Assembly: GCF_006385175.1 (NCBI RefSeq)
Contig: NZ_VFIY01000005.1
Span: 69,501 to 133,500 of the forward strand
DNA length: 64,000 bases
Reading direction: 5' to 3'
From: Emcibacter nanhaiensis
GTDB taxonomy: Bacteria > Pseudomonadota > Alphaproteobacteria > Sphingomonadales > Emcibacteraceae
The translations under genes were made by a program, and so were the position numbers. Of the stretch, positions 6,084-25,768 are shown piece by piece; the first letter of the stretch is position 1, and the number at the start of each line of letters is the position of its first letter. The notes under the pieces are model-generated. The model did no database searches and was not told where the DNA came from. It worked only from the letters and a program-made list of their open reading frames with translations.

Positions 6084-6746
6084 ATGCAACAGGCCACAAA
6101 AATTGCTCCTTCCATTCTGTCAGCGGATTTTGCTGCGCTTGGCGCCGAAGTGGCGGCGGTGGATGCGGCCGGGGCCGACTATATCCATGTGGATGTGATG
6201 GACGGCCATTTCGTACCCAACATCACCATCGGCTCGTCCGTGGTCAAGGCCCTGCGGCCGCACAGCAACAAAATCTTTGACGTGCACCTGATGATTTCCC
6301 CGGTTGACCTGTTTATCGAGGATTTCGCCAATGCCGGCGCCGATATCATCACCATTCACCCGGAAGCCGGTCCCCATTTCCATCGCACCCTGCAGCTGAT
6401 CAGGTCGCTGGGTAAAAAAGCGGGTATCTCCCTCAATCCGGGCACGCCGCTGGAATATGTGGAGAATGTCATGGACCTGGTGGACCTGGTGCTGGTGATG
6501 AGTGTCAACCCGGGCTTCGGCGGCCAGAAATTCATCGAGACCCAGCTTGATAAAATCTCCCGCCTGCGCGAGATGATCGATGCCAGCGGGCGCCAGATCG
6601 ACCTGCAAGTGGACGGCGGCATCAATCTGGAAACCGCGCCCCGGGCCGTTGCCGCCGGGGCGGACGTGCTGGTGGCCGGCACGGCCACTTTCACCGGCGG
6701 CCCGGCAAAATATGCGGAAAATATCCGAGCCCTGCGCGGCGAATAA
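6084..6746 (+). CDS. rpe: Ribulose-phosphate 3-epimerase
   Basis: A 220-residue TIM-barrel enzyme interconverting D-ribulose 5-phosphate and D-xylulose 5-phosphate in the pentose phosphate pathway. Visible family motifs are [10 protein letters not shown] near the N-terminus, [12 protein letters not shown] with the metal-binding His and catalytic Asp, [18 protein letters not shown], and VDGGIN followed by the [11 protein letters not shown] phosphate-binding segment. Length is typical. It is tightly coupled to rsmB (3-base gap). Confidence 0.96.
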
Positions 6747-6840
6747 GCGTCATTAAATTCCCTGTTATCTTTCCGGGCTCCTGTGATATGCTCCCGGACA
6801 GCCAAAGATTCCCGCAGAGATTCCCGGAGTATTGAAATTC

Positions 6841-8556
6841 ATGGCAGAGCTGCGCCGACCATCCGTGCGACCCTTTTCCGCGAAAATGCCGGCCCGATTC
6901 AAGTCTGCTGTCCGCCAGGCGGGACAGAAAACCCGATATTACGATATGCGCCTCAAGGGCAAGCACCCTTTGCGGCTGCTGGGCACGCCCAGGGATCCCT
7001 GGCAGGGCACCGTGGCCGGCGGCGCCCATATCCTGGCGCGGCGGTTTTATTGCGCCGGCCAGGTGCTGCGCAACCCGACCCATGAAAACGGGGAATGGAC
7101 ACCGGCGGAAATCTGGTCGGCAGACAAGCTGTCCGACCAGTGGCGGGATTACCTGCAGAGCTTTGCCTGGCTTCGGGACCTGAACCGGGCGGTGGACCGG
7201 CTGGCCGCCCGCGCCCGGGCCGAGGAACTGGTCAGCGGCTGGCTGGACCAGTTTGAAAACTGGAATGAATATGCCTGGCGGCCGGACCTCGCCGGCCGGC
7301 GGATCATCAACTGGCTGGCCTATGCGCCCCTGATCATGGACACCGACGATCTGGTCTATCGCAGCCGGGTGCTCAACGGCCTCGCCCGGCAGGCCCGGCA
7401 CCTGATGCATGAAAGTTCCGATTTTCCCCCGGGGCCGGACCGGTTGCTGGCCATTTCCGGTCTGATTCAGGCGGGGCTTTATATTCCCCATGGCGAAGAC
7501 TGGCTGAAGCGGGGAATCTCGCTGCTGAAACGGGAACTCGCGGACGAAGTTTATCCCGACGGCGGTGTGGCGAGCCGCAATCCGGAAGATGTGCTGCGGC
7601 TGCTCAAGGACCTGATCATGCTGCGCTCCGCCTGCCGCGGCATGGGCCATAAAATTCCCGAAGAACTGATTGCCGCCATGGACCGGCTGGCGGGCCTGTT
7701 GCGCCTGCTGTGCCACGGCGACGGGCGGCTGGCCCTGTTCAATGGCGCCAGCGAAGGGTCGGAAGAAGACATCCGCCAGACCCTGGAAATGGCCGGGGTG
7801 GGGCGGGACATGCAGCTGGATGCGCTGCAGGCCGGATTCCGCCGGCTGCAGAAAGGGGGCACCGCCCTGGTTGTCGACAGCGGTCCGCCGGCCCTGCCCG
7901 ATATCAGCCGCAACTGTCACGCCGGGACGCTGTCTTTTGAACTCAGCAGCCACAACCAGCGCATCATCGTCAATTGCGGCAGTGGCGCCTTTTATCCGCG
8001 AGAAGACGGCACGGATCTGTTCACCATCTCCCGCATTACTGCGGCCCACAGCACCCTGGTGCTGAACAACCGCAACAGCAGCGAAATCCTGGAAAACGGC
8101 CTGATCGGCGCCGGCCCGACGGTGGTGTCCAGCCGCCGGATCGAGGAGCGCGGCGACGTGCTGCTGGAATGTAGCCACAACGGTTATGAAGACCGGTTCG
8201 GGCGCAAACACTGGCGGCTGATCTATATGAACCGGGAAGGCGATGATGTGCGTGGCGAGGATATCCTCGAAGCGACATCGTCCAGAGTGGAAAGCCTGCC
8301 GTTCGATATCCGCTTTCACCTGCATCCCGATGTGGCGGCGAGCCTGCTGGAAGGGCGCAACAAGATCAAATTGCGCCTGCCCAGTGACGAGGTCTGGATG
8401 TTCATGTCCTCCGGCGCGGAAATGTCCCTTGAAGAAAGCCTCTACCTCGGGGCGCCCGGCCGCCTGCAGCGCAGCCGCCAGATTGTCCTGTCCAATATGG
8501 CCGGCAGCGGCGATACAACCGTGAAATGGGCTGTAAAACGAATAATAGACGCCTGA
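6841..8556 (+). CDS. Heparinase II/III-like protein
   Basis: A 571-residue protein with an alpha-helical toroid-like N-terminal region (about residues 60-330) and a beta-rich heparinase II/III C-terminal domain (PF07940, about 335-560) containing SHNQRIIVNCG, TAAHSTLVLNN and HNGYEDRFGRKHWR. Family lyases cleave uronate-containing polysaccharides, but this branch, embedded between rpe and purH in alphaproteobacteria, has no demonstrated substrate and no signal peptide here, so a cytoplasmic or non-lyase role is possible. The ATG at 6841 is preferred; a TTG three codons upstream is closer to GGAG at 6825-6828. It lies 94 bases after rpe and probably in the same transcription unit. Confidence 0.85.
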   Translation: MAELRRPSVRPFSAKMPARFKSAVRQAGQKTRYYDMRLKGKHPLRLLGTPRDPWQGTVAGGAHILARRFYCAGQVLRNPTHENGEWTPAEIWSADKLSDQWRDYLQSFAWLRDLNRAVDRLAARARAEELVSGWLDQFENWNEYAWRPDLAGRRIINWLAYAPLIMDTDDLVYRSRVLNGLARQARHLMHESSDFPPGPDRLLAISGLIQAGLYIPHGEDWLKRGISLLKRELADEVYPDGGVASRNPEDVLRLLKDLIMLRSACRGMGHKIPEELIAAMDRLAGLLRLLCHGDGRLALFNGASEGSEEDIRQTLEMAGVGRDMQLDALQAGFRRLQKGGTALVVDSGPPALPDISRNCHAGTLSFELSSHNQRIIVNCGSGAFYPREDGTDLFTISRITAAHSTLVLNNRNSSEILENGLIGAGPTVVSSRRIEERGDVLLECSHNGYEDRFGRKHWRLIYMNREGDDVRGEDILEATSSRVESLPFDIRFHLHPDVAASLLEGRNKIKLRLPSDEVWMFMSSGAEMSLEESLYLGAPGRLQRSRQIVLSNMAGSGDTTVKWAVKRIIDA

Positions 8557-19321: not shown

Positions 19322-19498
19322 AAAATTTCCCCGACCAGATTATTTTGATTTATTATTTAATGTCGGCAGTATGGAAGAGGTTGCTGGGGCGGTCAAGCGT
19401 CACGATGACGGATGGCGAAGTTAATGTCCCGCTTTGTGGGGACTGACAAGTCTGCCGGGGGAACCTAGACTTGCAGCAAAAACCAGGGAGACATCAGG
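19322..19498. promoter_or_regulatory. Divergent promoter region, nhaC / rdhA, with inverted repeat
   Basis: These 177 bases separate two divergent starts. The nhaC-proximal part is AT-rich (TTATTTTGATTTATTATTTAA), suitable for its promoter. On the rdhA side a perfect 7-bp inverted repeat, CAAGTCT at 19447-19453 and AGACTTG at 19467-19473 with a 13-base spacer, ends 25 bases before the rdhA start codon. A small GTCCC/GGGAC hairpin (19426-19443) precedes it. The 27-bp repeat has the geometry of a dimeric-regulator operator. No regulator gene is adjacent. Confidence 0.45.
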
Positions 19499-21670
19499 GT
19501 GATATTCTTTTCCAATAAAAACCGTCCCTTTGATCTGGGGCCCTATGCGCTGGAAAGATTGCCGCGGGATCCCGCAAAAATTGCTGCAGAAATGCTGCGG
19601 CAAAAAGTGCAGCAAAAATCCCCGGAGGGTGCAGCAAAAAACAGCCTGGGCCGGGCCATTATCCGCTATCATCAACTGTTTGAAAATTTCCGCGAACGCC
19701 CGCCGGCCAAAACCAGGGCGCCGCTGCCGGAGGATCCGCGCAAGCTGGTCGCTGACATGAAAGGCGGCGGCTATTTTCTCGACGCCAGCCACATGGGGAT
19801 CTGCGAACTCAGCGAAAATTGCTGGCTCGACGGGGTCGAGGCTCCGGCCCACAGCCATGCCATCGTGGTGCTGGTCAGATACGGCCGGACACCGGAAGAA
19901 GGCACCCTGGCCCACGGCTGGGTCGCGGGCAACGAGCCTGCCGCCGCGGCGCTCAGGGCCCGGGAGATTGCCCTGTGCCTCGCCGGACAGATCAATATCT
20001 ATGGCTGGTCGGCCCGGGTCCATGACGAAGCGGGCGAGGTGGATCTTGAGCGGCTTGCGGTATTGGCGGGCCTGGTGGTGCGCACCGACAATGGCATCGA
20101 AAGCCCCTACCTCGGCGACTGTTTTGCCCTGGCGGCCATCACCACCGATTATGCCCTCACCCCCGATGTGCCGCTGGCGGCCAGCGCCCTCAAGCAAGCC
20201 AAAGGGCTCGGCTATTATCTCGGTGCCGGCGGCGCGGTGCCGGGTATCGAATGGGACCGGCGACAAAAACGCCAGAGCCATATGAGCATCTACCCCATGG
20301 AAGATGTGCAGCGGGTCGACGAGCCCACCACCCTGATCCTGGAGGATGAGGTGCCGCGGGTGCCGAAACGGGCGGCCTTTTTCGAGCGGGCCCTGCGTGG
20401 CGACCTGGGGCCCAAGGCGCAAAAGGAGCGTGGTCGTTTCGCCTTCAAGCAGCCTTTGGCCTGGTCCATGCTGGGGCCGATCCGCGACATGGTGCCGCTG
20501 CAGGAGGGTGAGATCGCAGACCAGCAGGATCCCGCCTGTCTTGATCCGGCGGCAAACAGCCGGGCCCTCAAATCGCTCGGTTATTTCCTCGGCGCCGACC
20601 TGGTCGGCATCTGTGAAGTGCCGCGCTATGCCTGGTTTTCCCACAAGGAAGACGGCCGCGAGATCGCGCCCTATCACAAATATGCGGTGGTGATGCTGGT
20701 CGACCAGGGCTATGAGACCATGGAGGGGGCTTCGGGCGACGACTTTATTTCCGGTCCCCAGTCCATGCGCGCCTATATGCGCGGCGCGGAAATCTCAGGG
20801 GTGATGGCCGATCACCTGCGGCAGCTCGGTTTCGGCGCCCGGCCCCAGACCAATGCGGATTCCGACGTGCTGCATATCCCGCTTATTTTGCAGGCCGGCC
20901 TGGGTGAGCTCAGCCGCATCGGCGAACTGGTGCTCAATCCCTTTGTCGGGCCGCGCTTCAAGTCGGTGGTGATGACCACCGATCTGCCGCTCGAGGTGGA
21001 CAAGCCGATCGACTTCGGGCTGCAGACCTTCTGTTCCAGCTGTTTCAAATGCGCCCGGGAATGTCCCTGCGACGCCATCCCCTGGGGCGACAAGGTTATG
21101 TTCAACGGCTATGAAATGTGGAAGATCGACGCCGAGCGCTGCACCCGTTACCGGCTCACCAACCAGCGCGGCGCCGCCTGCGGCCGCTGCATGAAAACCT
21201 GCCCCTTGAACAAGGTGGTGACCTGGGAAGGCAATCTGCTGACCCGGATTGCGAGCTGGATGGGAATCCACGTCAAGCCGCTCAAACCGCTGATGGCGCC
21301 GGCGGCGGCGAAAATCGACGACCTGCTCGGCCATGGCCAGCGCAACCTGGTGAAAAAATGGTGGATCGATCTGGAAGTGGTGGACGGCGAAGCGATCCTG
21401 CCGCCCAAAGGAGTTAACGAGCGGGACCTGGATGTGGACCGCAAGCTGGACCCGTCGAAGCAGAAGATCGCCTATTATACCGCCGACATGATGCCGCCGG
21501 GCGACCAGTTCGAGGAGCCGTTTCCGGTCGACCGCAAGGCGGCGCTGGCTCAGGCCGGAAAGCTGGAAACACCCGCCAAAGCATGGGAACGAAGAGAGAA
21601 GGGTGGTCCAAAGCCGGCCTTTTACGATCCGACGCCGCCCCGAGGTTGGGTCAAAAATCAGGATTGCTGA
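19499..21670 (+). CDS. rdhA: Soluble cobalamin-dependent reductive dehalogenase (NpRdhA-like)
   Basis: A 723-residue protein with two tandem flavin-reductase/B12-type halves (about residues 70-250 and 355-500), then a bacterial ferredoxin-like region. Fe-S ligands are Cys512, 515, 518 and 522 (C-x2-C-x2-C-x3-CP) and Cys548, 561, 564 and 568 (C-x12-C-x2-C-x3-CP). The segment VGPRFKSVVMTTDLPLE followed by DKPIDFG is the hallmark stretch preceding the clusters in RdhA proteins. Ser422, Tyr426, Lys488 and Arg552 fall at the residue numbers I recall for the active site of Nitratireductor pacificus NpRdhA. There is no Tat signal and no membrane-anchor gene, which fits the catabolic, cytoplasmic class that removes halide from halogenated phenols. 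The GTG start has AGGGAG upstream and is supported by the numbering match. The 3' end overlaps the convergent flippase-like gene by 13 bases. Confidence 0.9.
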   Translation: MIFFSNKNRPFDLGPYALERLPRDPAKIAAEMLRQKVQQKSPEGAAKNSLGRAIIRYHQLFENFRERPPAKTRAPLPEDPRKLVADMKGGGYFLDASHMGICELSENCWLDGVEAPAHSHAIVVLVRYGRTPEEGTLAHGWVAGNEPAAAALRAREIALCLAGQINIYGWSARVHDEAGEVDLERLAVLAGLVVRTDNGIESPYLGDCFALAAITTDYALTPDVPLAASALKQAKGLGYYLGAGGAVPGIEWDRRQKRQSHMSIYPMEDVQRVDEPTTLILEDEVPRVPKRAAFFERALRGDLGPKAQKERGRFAFKQPLAWSMLGPIRDMVPLQEGEIADQQDPACLDPAANSRALKSLGYFLGADLVGICEVPRYAWFSHKEDGREIAPYHKYAVVMLVDQGYETMEGASGDDFISGPQSMRAYMRGAEISGVMADHLRQLGFGARPQTNADSDVLHIPLILQAGLGELSRIGELVLNPFVGPRFKSVVMTTDLPLEVDKPIDFGLQTFCSSCFKCARECPCDAIPWGDKVMFNGYEMWKIDAERCTRYRLTNQRGAACGRCMKTCPLNKVVTWEGNLLTRIASWMGIHVKPLKPLMAPAAAKIDDLLGHGQRNLVKKWWIDLEVVDGEAILPPKGVNERDLDVDRKLDPSKQKIAYYTADMMPPGDQFEEPFPVDRKAALAQAGKLETPAKAWERREKGGPKPAFYDPTPPRGWVKNQDC

Positions 21671-22620
21671 GGTAGCGCCACCGGCCGGAAGTTCCCGAAC
21701 GAGGTCAGAGCGTAAAGCAGCAGGTGCAGGCCCTGGGTCAGGGCGCCGGCGGCGACAAACATGCCGGCGACCCGGGCTTCCGGTGCATTGACAAACCCGG
21801 TCATGGACAGGCAGACGCCGAGGAAAATCAGTTCCGAATTGGGCAGGAACGGAATCCGGGTCAGCACCATCTGGGCAGTGATCAGCAACACCCAGGTGGT
21901 CACCGGCACCTCCGGCAGCACCACGTTCCATTGCAGGATCTGCAGTCCCAGCACCAGCAGCAGCCGGCTGATATGGATGGTCAGCACCTTGCGTACAATG
22001 ACCGGCGGCAGAGCCAGGATATGGCGGCGGAAACGGATCACCACCGGCACCAGGATCACAGTGATGACGGCGGCGAGGATCAGGTAGCTGGTCACCGACG
22101 GATCGGCGTTGGTGATGACCTTGATCTGGCCGGTCAGGAAAAAGATCGCCAGCAGGAACACCGTCATGCTGTTGGAGGTCAGCGCCGACAGGATGTTGTT
22201 GTCCTTGACCGTGGAAAAGATTTCCTTTTGACTGAGCTCGAGCCGCGGGATCGCCCAGAAGCAGAGATAGGCTTCTCCGGAATAGCCCATGACCCCGGTA
22301 TTGAAGATTTTTTTGCGCACAAAAACCGGGAAGCAGCGCCACAGGCCCACGTTCCAGATCAGCCGGTAAATCAAAAGTTCGCTGGCCGGCTGGCACAGGT
22401 AGATGACAAAAAACAGCAGGTAGAACAGCGGCGCGGCGGGCAGGGCATGGCGCACCTCGGCCCAGCCGATCTGTTCGACCCGAAAGATCAGATAGAGGAA
22501 GATCAGGCCGGTCATCAGCCATTGCAGAAGTTTCAGACCCTGGCGCACCCGGGGCTTCTGCAGATGGGTGTGCAGCGTCTGTCCCAGCTTCTTCAGGCCT
22601 GTCACTTTTTCTTCGGTCAT
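21658..22620 (-). CDS. Flippase-like integral membrane protein (LPG synthase TM/UPF0104 family)
   Basis: A 320-residue protein with about seven or eight hydrophobic segments beginning near residue 30 (LLQWLMTGLIFLYLIF). The overall pattern and the central conserved block (about residues 130-250) resemble PF03706, the membrane domain shared by lysyl-phosphatidylglycerol synthase and many proteins encoded beside glycosyltransferases. Members may translocate lipid-linked molecules, but this one has no synthase domain. It is last in a four-gene unit, 7 bases after the GT34-like gene, suggesting a role in handling the glycosylated lipid made by the upstream enzymes. Confidence 0.72.
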   Translation of the reverse strand: MTEEKVTGLKKLGQTLHTHLQKPRVRQGLKLLQWLMTGLIFLYLIFRVEQIGWAEVRHALPAAPLFYLLFFVIYLCQPASELLIYRLIWNVGLWRCFPVFVRKKIFNTGVMGYSGEAYLCFWAIPRLELSQKEIFSTVKDNNILSALTSNSMTVFLLAIFFLTGQIKVITNADPSVTSYLILAAVITVILVPVVIRFRRHILALPPVIVRKVLTIHISRLLLVLGLQILQWNVVLPEVPVTTWVLLITAQMVLTRIPFLPNSELIFLGVCLSMTGFVNAPEARVAGMFVAAGALTQGLHLLLYALTSFGNFRPVALPQQS

Positions 22621-22627
22621 GGGCCGT

Positions 22628-23320
22628 TCAATCCGCGCTCGCGGGTTTCATGGTCAGCTGCTTGTCATGCAGGATGACGGCGTCTTCGGTGGAAATGAGG
22701 AATTTCTCCAGCAGCGGGGCGGCGCCGACCCGGAGGATTTCTTTTTTCAGCAGATGAATGTGTTCACGATACTGCCGGAACAGCCCTTCCCACAGGACAT
22801 TCTGGTTGCGCGGATGCCGGTCGGCCAGGTGGGCCAGTTCGCCCCGGGCCAGCTCCAGCCAGCGGGTGAAAAATTCTTCGCCCAGTTCGTTGTTGCGGAT
22901 GATGCAGAAACCGGCGTTGGGCAGGAACAGGGTGCCGTATTTCACGGCGCCGCGCAGATTGAGCGGCAGCGGGATATTGAGATAACTGGAAATATCGGCC
23001 GGGAAATAAATGTCCCTGCCCGGGTGACGCGCGAGGATATCTTCAAACCCGACCTCTTCGCGCAGGATGATACTGTCGGCATCCACCTTGACCAGCCAGT
23101 CGGCGTCGCTTTGGCTGAACCGGCGGCGCATCATCTCGATCATGCTCCAGTTGATGTGCATGTCCGGTATCAGCTGTTCCCGGCAGACAATGAAAGTATA
23201 GCCATGGCGGTCACAATAGCGCTGCCACTGGGCCACGGTTTCCTTGGCATAATAATCGATGTTCGGCGTGGCCAGCATCAGAACATCAATCTTCAGCGGC
23301 CGGGTCTTGTTGTCAGTCAT
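22628..23320 (-). CDS. Putative glycosyltransferase, GMA12/MNN10-like
   Basis: A 230-residue soluble protein. The N-terminus IDVLMLATPNIDYYAKETVAQ, the WLVKVDADSIIL segment with a D-x-D metal/nucleotide-sugar motif near residue 75, and the later NAGFCIIRNNELGEEFFTRW block followed by NQNVLWEGL resemble the galactosyl/mannosyl transferases of the GMA12/MNN10 (GT34) group. No membrane anchor is visible. It overlaps the upstream glycosyltransferase gene by 8 bases, so the two are translationally coupled. The sugar donor and acceptor are unknown. Confidence 0.65.
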   Translation of the reverse strand: MTDNKTRPLKIDVLMLATPNIDYYAKETVAQWQRYCDRHGYTFIVCREQLIPDMHINWSMIEMMRRRFSQSDADWLVKVDADSIILREEVGFEDILARHPGRDIYFPADISSYLNIPLPLNLRGAVKYGTLFLPNAGFCIIRNNELGEEFFTRWLELARGELAHLADRHPRNQNVLWEGLFRQYREHIHLLKKEILRVGAAPLLEKFLISTEDAVILHDKQLTMKPASAD

Positions 23321-24512
23321 GTTCTGCAGGGTCTCGCTTCTTTTTGATCAGCTGTTCATAGTGTGCGAACAGCCGCCGGAAATGCTCCTCCGGCGGAATG
23401 ACTTTTTGTTTTGCCGCCTCTCCGGCCGCCTGGCGCATTGTCGCGGGGTCCCGCAGCAGGAAGCGGTGCAGGGCGTCGGTGCAGCCGGCAACATCGCCGG
23501 CTTTATAGAATTCCGCATAGTCCGGCCGAGCCAGGTCGGCGGCGCCGCCGAGGTTCGGCACCACCAGCGGCAGGCCGGCACACAGGCCCTCGGCGATCAC
23601 CAGGCCATAGGTTTCGGCGGCGCTGCCGTGCAGCATGCCGTCGGCGCTGGCGAGGATTCTGGCCAGCTGGTCCCGGTCTTTGGTAAAGCCGGCGACACAG
23701 GTTCCCTTGTGGCGGCGGGCCAGCCGGTCAACCGATGTGCGGGCCGGGCCGTCGCCGATCAGGTAGAGCCCCACCGGACGCACCCGGTTGACCCGGTCGA
23801 TCGCCCTGATCAGGCAGCCGATGCGCTTTTCCGGGTGATGGCGGCTGACCGAGATAAACAGCTTGCCGTCCGGATCGCTGATGCCGCATTTTTTCAGCAG
23901 CTCCCGGCGCAGCTCTTCCGAGCCCTTGTCCGGGGAAAAGGCGCTGGCGTCGATACCGAGGGGGATGGCATGGGCATTGCCAAGCCCGTGTTGTTGCAGC
24001 CGCTCGGCCAGCCAGTCGCCGGCGACAATGGTGGTGTCGAACTTCCGGCCCAGTTTGCGCAGGTAAGCCCAGAACCAGAAAAACAGTGCATCGACGCTGT
24101 CCGTACTCATAAAGCGGTCGAGAAAAGTATGGGGATAAACCGCCACCGGGTCCTGGTGGAAGAAAAAGCTCTTTATTGCCGGGCGCGGCCGCTTGTCCTG
24201 CCATGTGGCGGCGATCCAGCCGCCGCGCCAGGGCGAGGAGCCTTCCACCACATCGGGCTGTTCGCGCTCGAGGATGCGGTGAATTTCCTCCGCTTTCCAG
24301 AACAGGTGATAGCGTTTGTCCACCGGGATGGGCGGCGCTTCCACCCACTGGATGCGTCCGCCGTCACGTTGTTCCTCGCGGGTCTCGGGACCCGGGGCAA
24401 TGATCAGGCAGTCATGTCCGGCTACTTTCGCCGCGGCCAGCTTCTGCTGGATATAGGTGCGGACACCGCCGCCCTGGTCGCTGTAGAATTCGGCAATGTC
24501 CACCAGCTTCAT
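23313..24512 (-). CDS. Glycosyltransferase family 4 protein (1)
   Basis: A 399-residue GT-B enzyme. The N-terminal acceptor domain begins with IAEFYSDQGGGVRTYIQQKL, the glycine loop typical of GT4 enzymes. The C-terminal nucleotide-sugar domain contains FISVSRHHPEKRI, LYLIGDGPA and the E-x7-E-type motif in GSAAETYGLVIAEGLCAGLP. It should transfer a sugar from a nucleotide donor to a lipid or glycan on the cytoplasmic face. It overlaps the preceding GT4 gene by 4 bases and the following gene by 8. Confidence 0.87.
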   Translation of the reverse strand: MKLVDIAEFYSDQGGGVRTYIQQKLAAAKVAGHDCLIIAPGPETREEQRDGGRIQWVEAPPIPVDKRYHLFWKAEEIHRILEREQPDVVEGSSPWRGGWIAATWQDKRPRPAIKSFFFHQDPVAVYPHTFLDRFMSTDSVDALFFWFWAYLRKLGRKFDTTIVAGDWLAERLQQHGLGNAHAIPLGIDASAFSPDKGSEELRRELLKKCGISDPDGKLFISVSRHHPEKRIGCLIRAIDRVNRVRPVGLYLIGDGPARTSVDRLARRHKGTCVAGFTKDRDQLARILASADGMLHGSAAETYGLVIAEGLCAGLPLVVPNLGGAADLARPDYAEFYKAGDVAGCTDALHRFLLRDPATMRQAAGEAAKQKVIPPEEHFRRLFAHYEQLIKKKRDPAEHD

Positions 24513-25768
24513 GACGGAAGGTGTCCCGGCAGCGGATCGGCGGCAATGGGGATCGCCGGGATGACCTGTTCCCGGGTTTCTTCCGGCAGGTCGAGGATTT
24601 CAATATAGTGCCCCAGCAGCACCCGCATGACATTTTCCCAGTCATGGCGCAGGGCGTTGACCCGGGCGGCCAGGCGCATGACGGTACGCAGGTTGGCGGA
24701 ACTGATCAGCTGTTCGGCGGCGTCCACATAGCCTTCCCGGTCTGCCGGATCGACCAGAAAGCCGGTCTCTTCATGTTTGACCAGGCAGCGGCTGCCGCTG
24801 GCGTCGGCGCAGATGGTGGGCACACCGCAGGCCATGGCCTCCAGGGTGACATTGCCGAAGGCTTCGGTGACGCTGGGATTGAAGAAGATGTCCGAGGAAG
24901 CATAGGCCCGGGCCAGTTCCTCCTTGTGCAGGAATCCGGTGAAAATGGCCTCGGGCAGCATTTTTTCCAGTTTGCCCCGGGCCGGGCCGTCGCCGACCAC
25001 CAGAATGCGGTGGGCCAGGCCGCGCCGCTCCAGCCGCCTGGAAAAATCAGCCAGCACATCCAGGCCTTTTTCCAGTACCAGCCGGCCGACAAAGGAAATG
25101 ACGATTTCATTGTTCTGGATGCCCAGCGACTGGCGCCAGTTAAGATCGCGCCTTTCCGGGGTGAACAGATTGGTTTCCACACCGCGGCTCCAGATCCGGA
25201 TATCCCGGGCCAGGTCAGTTCCCCGCAGGATTTCGGCAACGGACTCTGTCGGCACATAGACATGGTCACACCGCTGGTAGAAGTAACGCAGGTATTTGAG
25301 CAGATATTTTTCCGCCCAGCCCAGTCCGTAATAACGGAGATAGGTTTCATAGCGGGTATGGAAGGAGGCCACCACAGGCAGGCCGTTTTCCAGGCCGTAT
25401 TTCTGGGCGGAATATCCCAGGTAATCGGGAGCGGACAAATGGATAATGTCCGGATCAAAGTCGTCCAGCCGTTCGCGCACCGATCTGGTCAGGCCAAGGC
25501 CGATCCGGTATTCGCCGCGACCCGGCACCGGGATGGAGGGAACGGAAACCACAGTGCCCGCATAATCGCGGATCGCCGGCGTGTCGGTGGTCGGTGAAAA
25601 GACCAGCACCTCAAAACCCTTGCGTTCGAGATAGGCCACCAGCCGGTTCAGCGCCAGGGCAGCACCATCCTTGATATAATTATAGTTGCCGGAGAAAAGA
25701 GCGACCTTGCGCCGCCGCCGGTTCTGTCCATTGTCCTGCGATAGATACTCCTGGTAGACCTGTTTCAT
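24509..25768 (-). CDS. Glycosyltransferase family 4 protein (2), glycolipid-type
   Basis: A 419-residue GT-B enzyme heading the operon. The N-terminus VALFSGNYNYIKDGAALALN and HLSAPDYLGYSAQKYG resemble the MgtA/SqdX-like group that glycosylates diacylglycerol. The donor-binding domain shows FVGRLVLEKGLDVL, ILVVGDGPARGKLE and SVTEAFGNVTLEAMACGVP. A cytoplasmic, membrane-peripheral location is expected. The 4-base ATGA-type overlap with the next gene indicates translational coupling. The similarity to glycolipid synthases is by eye and needs an alignment to place the subfamily. Confidence 0.85.
   Translation of the reverse strand: MKQVYQEYLSQDNGQNRRRRKVALFSGNYNYIKDGAALALNRLVAYLERKGFEVLVFSPTTDTPAIRDYAGTVVSVPSIPVPGRGEYRIGLGLTRSVRERLDDFDPDIIHLSAPDYLGYSAQKYGLENGLPVVASFHTRYETYLRYYGLGWAEKYLLKYLRYFYQRCDHVYVPTESVAEILRGTDLARDIRIWSRGVETNLFTPERRDLNWRQSLGIQNNEIVISFVGRLVLEKGLDVLADFSRRLERRGLAHRILVVGDGPARGKLEKMLPEAIFTGFLHKEELARAYASSDIFFNPSVTEAFGNVTLEAMACGVPTICADASGSRCLVKHEETGFLVDPADREGYVDAAEQLISSANLRTVMRLAARVNALRHDWENVMRVLLGHYIEILDLPEETREQVIPAIPIAADPLPGHLPS

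Follow-up and report, generated by a model that had tools for sequence, protein, structure and literature searches.

A predicted catabolic reductive dehalogenase of Emcibacter nanhaiensis, unfused and two-domain, in a clade apparently apart from NpRdhA

The window analyzed here is a stretch of 64,000 nucleotides from Emcibacter nanhaiensis. From a GTG at 19499 a frame runs without a stop for 723 amino acids, and this gene, rdhA, is the sole match to its own protein within the 3.96-Mb genome. The GTG is a credible start because a Shine-Dalgarno-like AGGGAG lies 8 nt ahead of it, and because the N-terminus of the product, MIFFSNKNRPFDLGPY, aligns with the dehalogenase NpRdhA starting at residue 3 and with almost all relatives starting at residue 1. 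On the 5' side there is a divergent gene for an NhaC-like antiporter, and on the 3' side a convergent gene for a flippase-like membrane protein (21658-22620) with a 13-bp overlap. The locus is flanked by transporter and glycosyltransferase genes, the adjoining transporters being sodium coupled and one of them of the NSS type, and it is without a catabolic partner; RdhB, a ferredoxin, and a reductase were looked for adjacent to rdhA and none was found. A functional tie between rdhA and the NSS and NhaC-like transporters was considered and dropped, since the order gdhB, next gene, nhaC is intact in a relative where both rdhA and the NSS gene are missing from that place. Adjoining the flippase-like gene, at 22628-25768, are glycosyltransferase-type genes, one product of which matches the GMA12/MNN10 family (Glyco_transf_34). 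Inside a promoter-like stretch 5' of rdhA is a 7-bp palindrome, CAAGTCT-13 nt-AGACTTG (19447-19474), which may be an operator; it and the promoter-like match could also be due to chance. In folding, the 5' leader does not surpass its shuffles (z −0.02).

Table 1. Features of rdhA and its product, in positions of the window
Feature	Position	Strand	Remark
rdhA	19499..21670	+	723-aa predicted soluble catabolic reductive dehalogenase, unfused two-domain form; monocistronic
AGGGAG, Shine-Dalgarno-like	19485..19490	+	8 nt 5' of the rdhA GTG; read off the sequence
Residues 1-250, vestigial duplicated corrinoid-binding domain	19499..20248	+	No Fe-S motif; internal duplication
Residues 251-723, catalytic corrinoid/[4Fe-4S] core	20249..21667	+	NpRdhA alignment, TIGR02486, structure match
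Gly419	20753..20755	+	Ala in NpRdhA; Gly in 78/80 relatives
Ser422	20762..20764	+	Invariant in 80 relatives
Tyr426	20774..20776	+	Invariant in 80 relatives
Lys488	20960..20962	+	Invariant in 80 relatives
First [4Fe-4S] motif, C512-C515-C518-C522	21032..21064	+	C512-X2-C-X2-C-X3-CP
Second [4Fe-4S] motif, C548 + C561-C564-C568	21140..21202	+	C561-X2-C-X3-CP
Arg552	21152..21154	+	Invariant in 80 relatives

The protein contains an internal duplication: residues 36-226 can be aligned to 306-504 with 30% identity (E = 7.7e-17). Such a duplication is a mark of the catabolic type, and that of the corrinoid domain is already known in NpRdhA (PMC10463259). A Cys motif was looked for in the N-terminal half and not found, and both [4Fe-4S] motifs are complete, as a preliminary description of this DNA had stated. 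The reductive dehalogenase model TIGR02486 scores 168.1 bits, over its curated cut-off of 160.35. The same description had claimed that there is no Tat signal, no RdhB anchor, and no fused reductase, and each holds: residues 1-60 contain no RR and the maximal 19-residue Kyte-Doolittle value is 1.2, the neighbors are NhaC-like and flippase-like, and the C-terminal reductase module is absent, the protein ending at 723 with only Fer4-type domains given by Pfam.

A phmmer search of all PDB sequences places NpRdhA (4RAS) first, joining query residues 3-699 to NpRdhA 3-693 at E = 1.6e-202; NpRdhA is the only unfused catabolic RdhA found there. At such E-values chance is no possible explanation. The next matches are the 8q4h enzyme and PceA at E about 1e-26 to 1e-25, and then QueG at E = 2e-4. 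The AlphaFold2 model, built from 45 aligned proteins of the window and the loci, has pLDDT 87 and pTM 0.92. With it, Foldseek puts NpRdhA chains on top (E 1e-77 to 1e-79, TM about 0.9), and VIA-align finds Z = 45-46 to NpRdhA with 2.0 Å over 669 residues, followed by Z = 21-23 to PceA-type enzymes and the 8q4h enzyme, 12-13 to QueG, and 6-7 to the B12 processing proteins MMACHC/CblD. The preliminary description had nominated a catabolic dehalogenase, and the NpRdhA match, the TIGR02486 score, and the Z of 46 bear this out.

In a MAFFT alignment with NpRdhA and 80 relatives, identity to NpRdhA is 49% over the full length. Here and in the phmmer alignment Ser422, Tyr426, Lys488, and Arg552 occupy common columns in the 2 proteins, and the translation counted from the GTG confirms them at the numbers previously assigned. 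From substrate complexes and mutants of NpRdhA, Ser422 and Arg552 were assigned as phenol-OH contacts, Tyr426 as the proton donor, and Lys488 as a part of the catalytic dyad that also contacts the phenol OH (PMC7565698). The query pocket keeps all 4, along with N452, Phe 294 and 295, and M423, which too is invariant in the 80 relatives of the MAFFT alignment. The proposal that the 2 proteins are collinear stands for the full-length match and for the numbering, which is identical from about 410 to 570, but not near residue 300, where query F294/F295/R311/F314/A315 pair with NpRdhA F290/F291/K307/F310/P311, the query being 4 ahead. Later indels cancel this offset, and the equal residue numbers are partly luck through such compensation. 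On the evidence of its sequence, the protein belongs to the catabolic (class III cobalamin) reductive dehalogenases, has its active site intact, and is not a QueG.

The idea that the pocket would be identical to that of NpRdhA does not survive the alignment. From NpRdhA to the query the differences are A419G, P311A, and K307R, Lys307 being at the pocket entrance, with S487F nearby. Ala419 of NpRdhA lines the pocket beside the second, non-ligating halogen (PMC7565698), and the query pocket may be slightly roomier around the second ortho position. At 311, 419, and 487 the query has the residues common to the unfused relatives, from almost all of which NpRdhA departs, and it is NpRdhA that is the exception at these pocket positions.

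A core-domain tree of 55 rows, made by IQ-TREE in quick mode with PceA fragments as the outgroup, sets the query within a clade of unfused two-domain enzymes (29 rows, SH-aLRT 100). The PDOR-fused forms make one clade, also with SH-aLRT 100, and NpRdhA joins them and 4 other sequences on a long branch with support 84, as placed by a quick tree only. Since the pocket is not identical and the clade appears separate, the exact substrate is not transferable from NpRdhA. Hosts of the query clade include Rhodospirillales, Woeseiaceae, Betaproteobacteria, Thalassobaculum, Oceanibacterium, many marine and sediment bins, and other mostly uncultured Proteobacteria, and the relatives come mostly from marine, sponge, and sediment genomes. 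A scan with one genome per GTDB species yields 514 candidate stretches coding for query relatives. Of 385 alphaproteobacterial genomes sampled evenly, 42 give a match of any kind at E ≤ 1e-20, and a strong two-domain match (E ≤ 1e-180) is present in 20, the own genome counted. The other sampled genomes of the host family have no member of the query clade, carrying PDOR-fused, single-domain, or more distant forms, and hence rdhA was either gained here or lost in the kin. The PDOR-fused relatives from the host family are about 39% identical to the query across both domains. One homologue in this family (genome G003) was considered as a pseudogene on account of reported stops, a reading rejected on its open 751-aa frame.

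Among known systems, NpRdhA of Nitratireductor pacificus pht-3B (4RAS, 6ZXU, 6ZXX, 6ZY0, 6ZY1) is likewise an unfused, soluble, two-domain protein with Fe-S motifs and catalytic residues alike, but it differs apparently in clade, and in the residues at 307, 311, 419, and 487. The RdhA-PDOR fusions JtRdhA (Jhaorihella thermophila) and BhbA (Comamonas) have the catabolic two-domain core and Tyr/Lys/Arg as in the query, plus a C-terminal FMN/NAD/[2Fe-2S] reductase module that the query is without. PceA of Sulfurospirillum multivorans and the menaquinol:organohalide oxidoreductase 8q4h have in common with the query the core fold and the layout of the cofactors (Z 22-23), but are respiratory, exported, without the fused vestigial domain, and only about 21-26% identical to the query. 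T7RdhA is a PceA-like protein (PMC10008544). Ros_A3X954 of Roseobacter sp. MED193 and a Pararhodobacter relative are soluble marine alphaproteobacterial proteins without Tat signals, active on 2,6-dibromophenol or 2,4,6-triiodophenol (PMC13101508). Ros_A3X954 resembles the query in these traits of solubility and origin, but the placement of its Fe-S motifs, 283-294 and 337-345, points to a protein of one domain, and their sequence is unlike that of the query.

The electron donor had been supposed to be encoded elsewhere, and that is borne out at the locus and throughout the clade. When every flanking ORF (up to 10 kb) from 80 relatives was clustered, no neighbor family occurred in more than 16 loci, and the commonest one, with those 16, is a common short-chain dehydrogenase. 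In a Pfam tally of the 108 nearest neighbors the most frequent family, NUDIX, occurs in 5. Plant-type [2Fe-2S] motifs are found in merely 13 flank ORFs across the 80 loci, at varied distances, and no recurring halophenol-pathway neighbors were found beside query-clade genes. An unlinked donor is thus, as far as gene order can tell, a property of the entire query clade. The genome itself, in which ferredoxins and reductases were sought as previously suggested, contains 17 Fer2 domains along with 5 NAD domains of flavoreductase type, away from rdhA. A search with the PDOR module of a fused relative hits, among the genome regions covered, chiefly a P450-reductase fusion (41%) and weakly the PaaE-type reductase, neither of them linked. 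The former is at 6112-8415 of locus L162 on contig C10, a P450 fused to a PDOR-type reductase, the 41% referring to its reductase part. With no linked partner, no conserved neighbor in the clade, and Fer2 and flavoreductase domains elsewhere, we infer that a general ferredoxin system is the likeliest donor. The linked ferredoxins of NpRdhA failed in vitro, where spinach ferredoxin with E. coli flavodoxin reductase worked (PMC10463259), a result that suits a promiscuous electron acceptor.

For the cofactor, the check for cobamide genes finds a salvage set consisting of CbiB, a CobD-type decarboxylase, CobA/O, CobS, CobT, and CobU, as well as a BtuB-like TonB receptor that is under the family cut-off, and CobN-type chelatase genes. 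CobJ/CbiH has no match in the genome over its cut-off (39 bits versus 246). The host therefore most likely salvages cobamides, with the corrin ring made by other organisms. A phenylacetyl-CoA epoxidase, 2 phenol-hydroxylase-type monooxygenases, a Rieske dioxygenase, LigB, and the P450-reductase fusion give the genome the look of an aerobic aromatic degrader, and the gene set earlier called respiratory-looking has no bearing on the function.

These findings lead us to propose, with a probability of roughly 0.78, a monomeric catabolic reductive dehalogenase of the cytoplasm that operates in the manner of NpRdhA, the halophenol mechanism included. We infer the mechanism and the halophenol class from NpRdhA. 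Ortho-halogenated phenols are the substrates of every catabolic RdhA characterized up to 2023 (PMC10463259), and halophenol chemistry for the predicted enzyme appears well founded. Base-off cobalamin, permitted by the fold and supplied by salvaged cobamides, would sit above the 2 [4Fe-4S] clusters, and an ortho-halogenated phenol would be held by its OH at Ser422/Lys488/Arg552 with the halogen on the cobalt. Two electrons would come by way of the clusters, given by a ferredoxin or flavoreductase whose gene lies elsewhere, and the proton would come from Tyr426 with Lys488, whereupon the halide and a less halogenated phenol would leave, the latter for general aromatic catabolism. The natural substrates are probably naturally brominated, chlorinated, or iodinated phenolics. 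Counting against this proposal are the pocket differences at 307, 311, and 419, the neighboring one at 487, the lack of a catabolic gene beside rdhA, and the lack of recurring halophenol-pathway neighbors in the clade.

Those differences are where a dehalogenase with a natural substrate other than a simple halophenol might be looked for, such as a halogenated tyrosine, an iodophenolic, or a larger marine natural product in the roomier Gly419 pocket. Gly419 takes the place of the NpRdhA residue beside the second halogen and is fixed in the clade, the relatives' genomes are largely marine, sponge, and sediment ones, and the adjoining sodium-coupled transporters, with one of the NSS type, might serve to take up an amino acid. 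But the phenol-OH triad is kept without exception, and the pair of transporter genes is not found again next to relatives, which makes that link weak; we consider such a substrate rather unlikely. A class III corrinoid reductase that is not a dehalogenase, doing epoxyqueuosine reduction or some other reduction, would account for the core fold shared with QueG (Z 13), but is very improbable given that the QueG model TIGR00276 scores 25.9 bits against a cut-off of 200, 174 bits short, and that in two-domain architecture and in the Ser/Tyr/Lys/Arg set the protein agrees with NpRdhA. QueG identity, with structural Z also far below that of NpRdhA, is rejected, and the protein neither groups with QueG nor departs from NpRdhA at the 4 residues, the outcomes that the preliminary description had named as telling against it. 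The RDH subfamily model is common to respiratory enzymes too, and a soluble respiratory or energy-conserving dehalogenase would pass it. That reading has hardly any chance beside the missing Tat signal, the missing membrane anchor gene next to rdhA, a duplicated domain typical of the catabolic type, and the genome of an aerobic aromatic degrader; respiratory RdhA identity is rejected for want of the Tat signal and rdhB.

The NpRdhA-like halophenol dehalogenase that we prefer is of an enzyme type already known. What is new is the apparently separate clade, the atypical pocket of NpRdhA, the clade-wide lack of a linked partner, and the background of cobamide salvage. The 514 candidate stretches and the 20 of 385 genomes suggest that the query clade may weigh more in the natural turnover of organohalides than the handful of enzymes investigated to date. 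It is conceivable, though on balance doubtful, that this is a large clade of aerobic cytosolic dehalogenases spread as single unlinked genes across marine Proteobacteria, using general-purpose ferredoxins and salvaged cobamides to dehalogenate natural marine phenolics sized by the Gly419 pocket; if true, it would be an overlooked part of the ocean halogen cycle.

RdhA genes of other forms occur as well, in the host family and in genome G356. In genome G004 of the host family (L190, 2000-6008) there is a single-domain cytosolic RdhA of 450 aa, 51% identical to the query core, with S/Y/K/R kept and Met423 replaced by Tyr. Unlike the genes of the query clade, it lies in an HpaB-LigA-LigB operon, directly 3' of the HpaB-type monooxygenase, LigA, and LigB genes with an IclR-like regulator ahead, by gene content a putative ready-made halophenol pathway. 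It is possible that this protein represents the undivided ancestor of the duplicated form. Genome G003 of this family (L187, 684-16498) has 5 tandem RdhA-like genes of about 345-392 aa, in the company of a stand-alone PDOR-type reductase, a TonB receptor, a Rieske-like ferredoxin, extradiol and intradiol ring-cleavage dioxygenases, and a maleylacetate-reductase-like gene; of the RdhA-like products, the one that was scanned reaches 120.6 bits, under the RDH cut-off of 160.35. Two further RdhA-like genes are found at L188. Genome G356 (L191, 5146-7778) encodes 2 adjoining single-domain RdhAs of 433 and 444 aa, both above the RDH cut-off, next to putative TRAP transporter genes.
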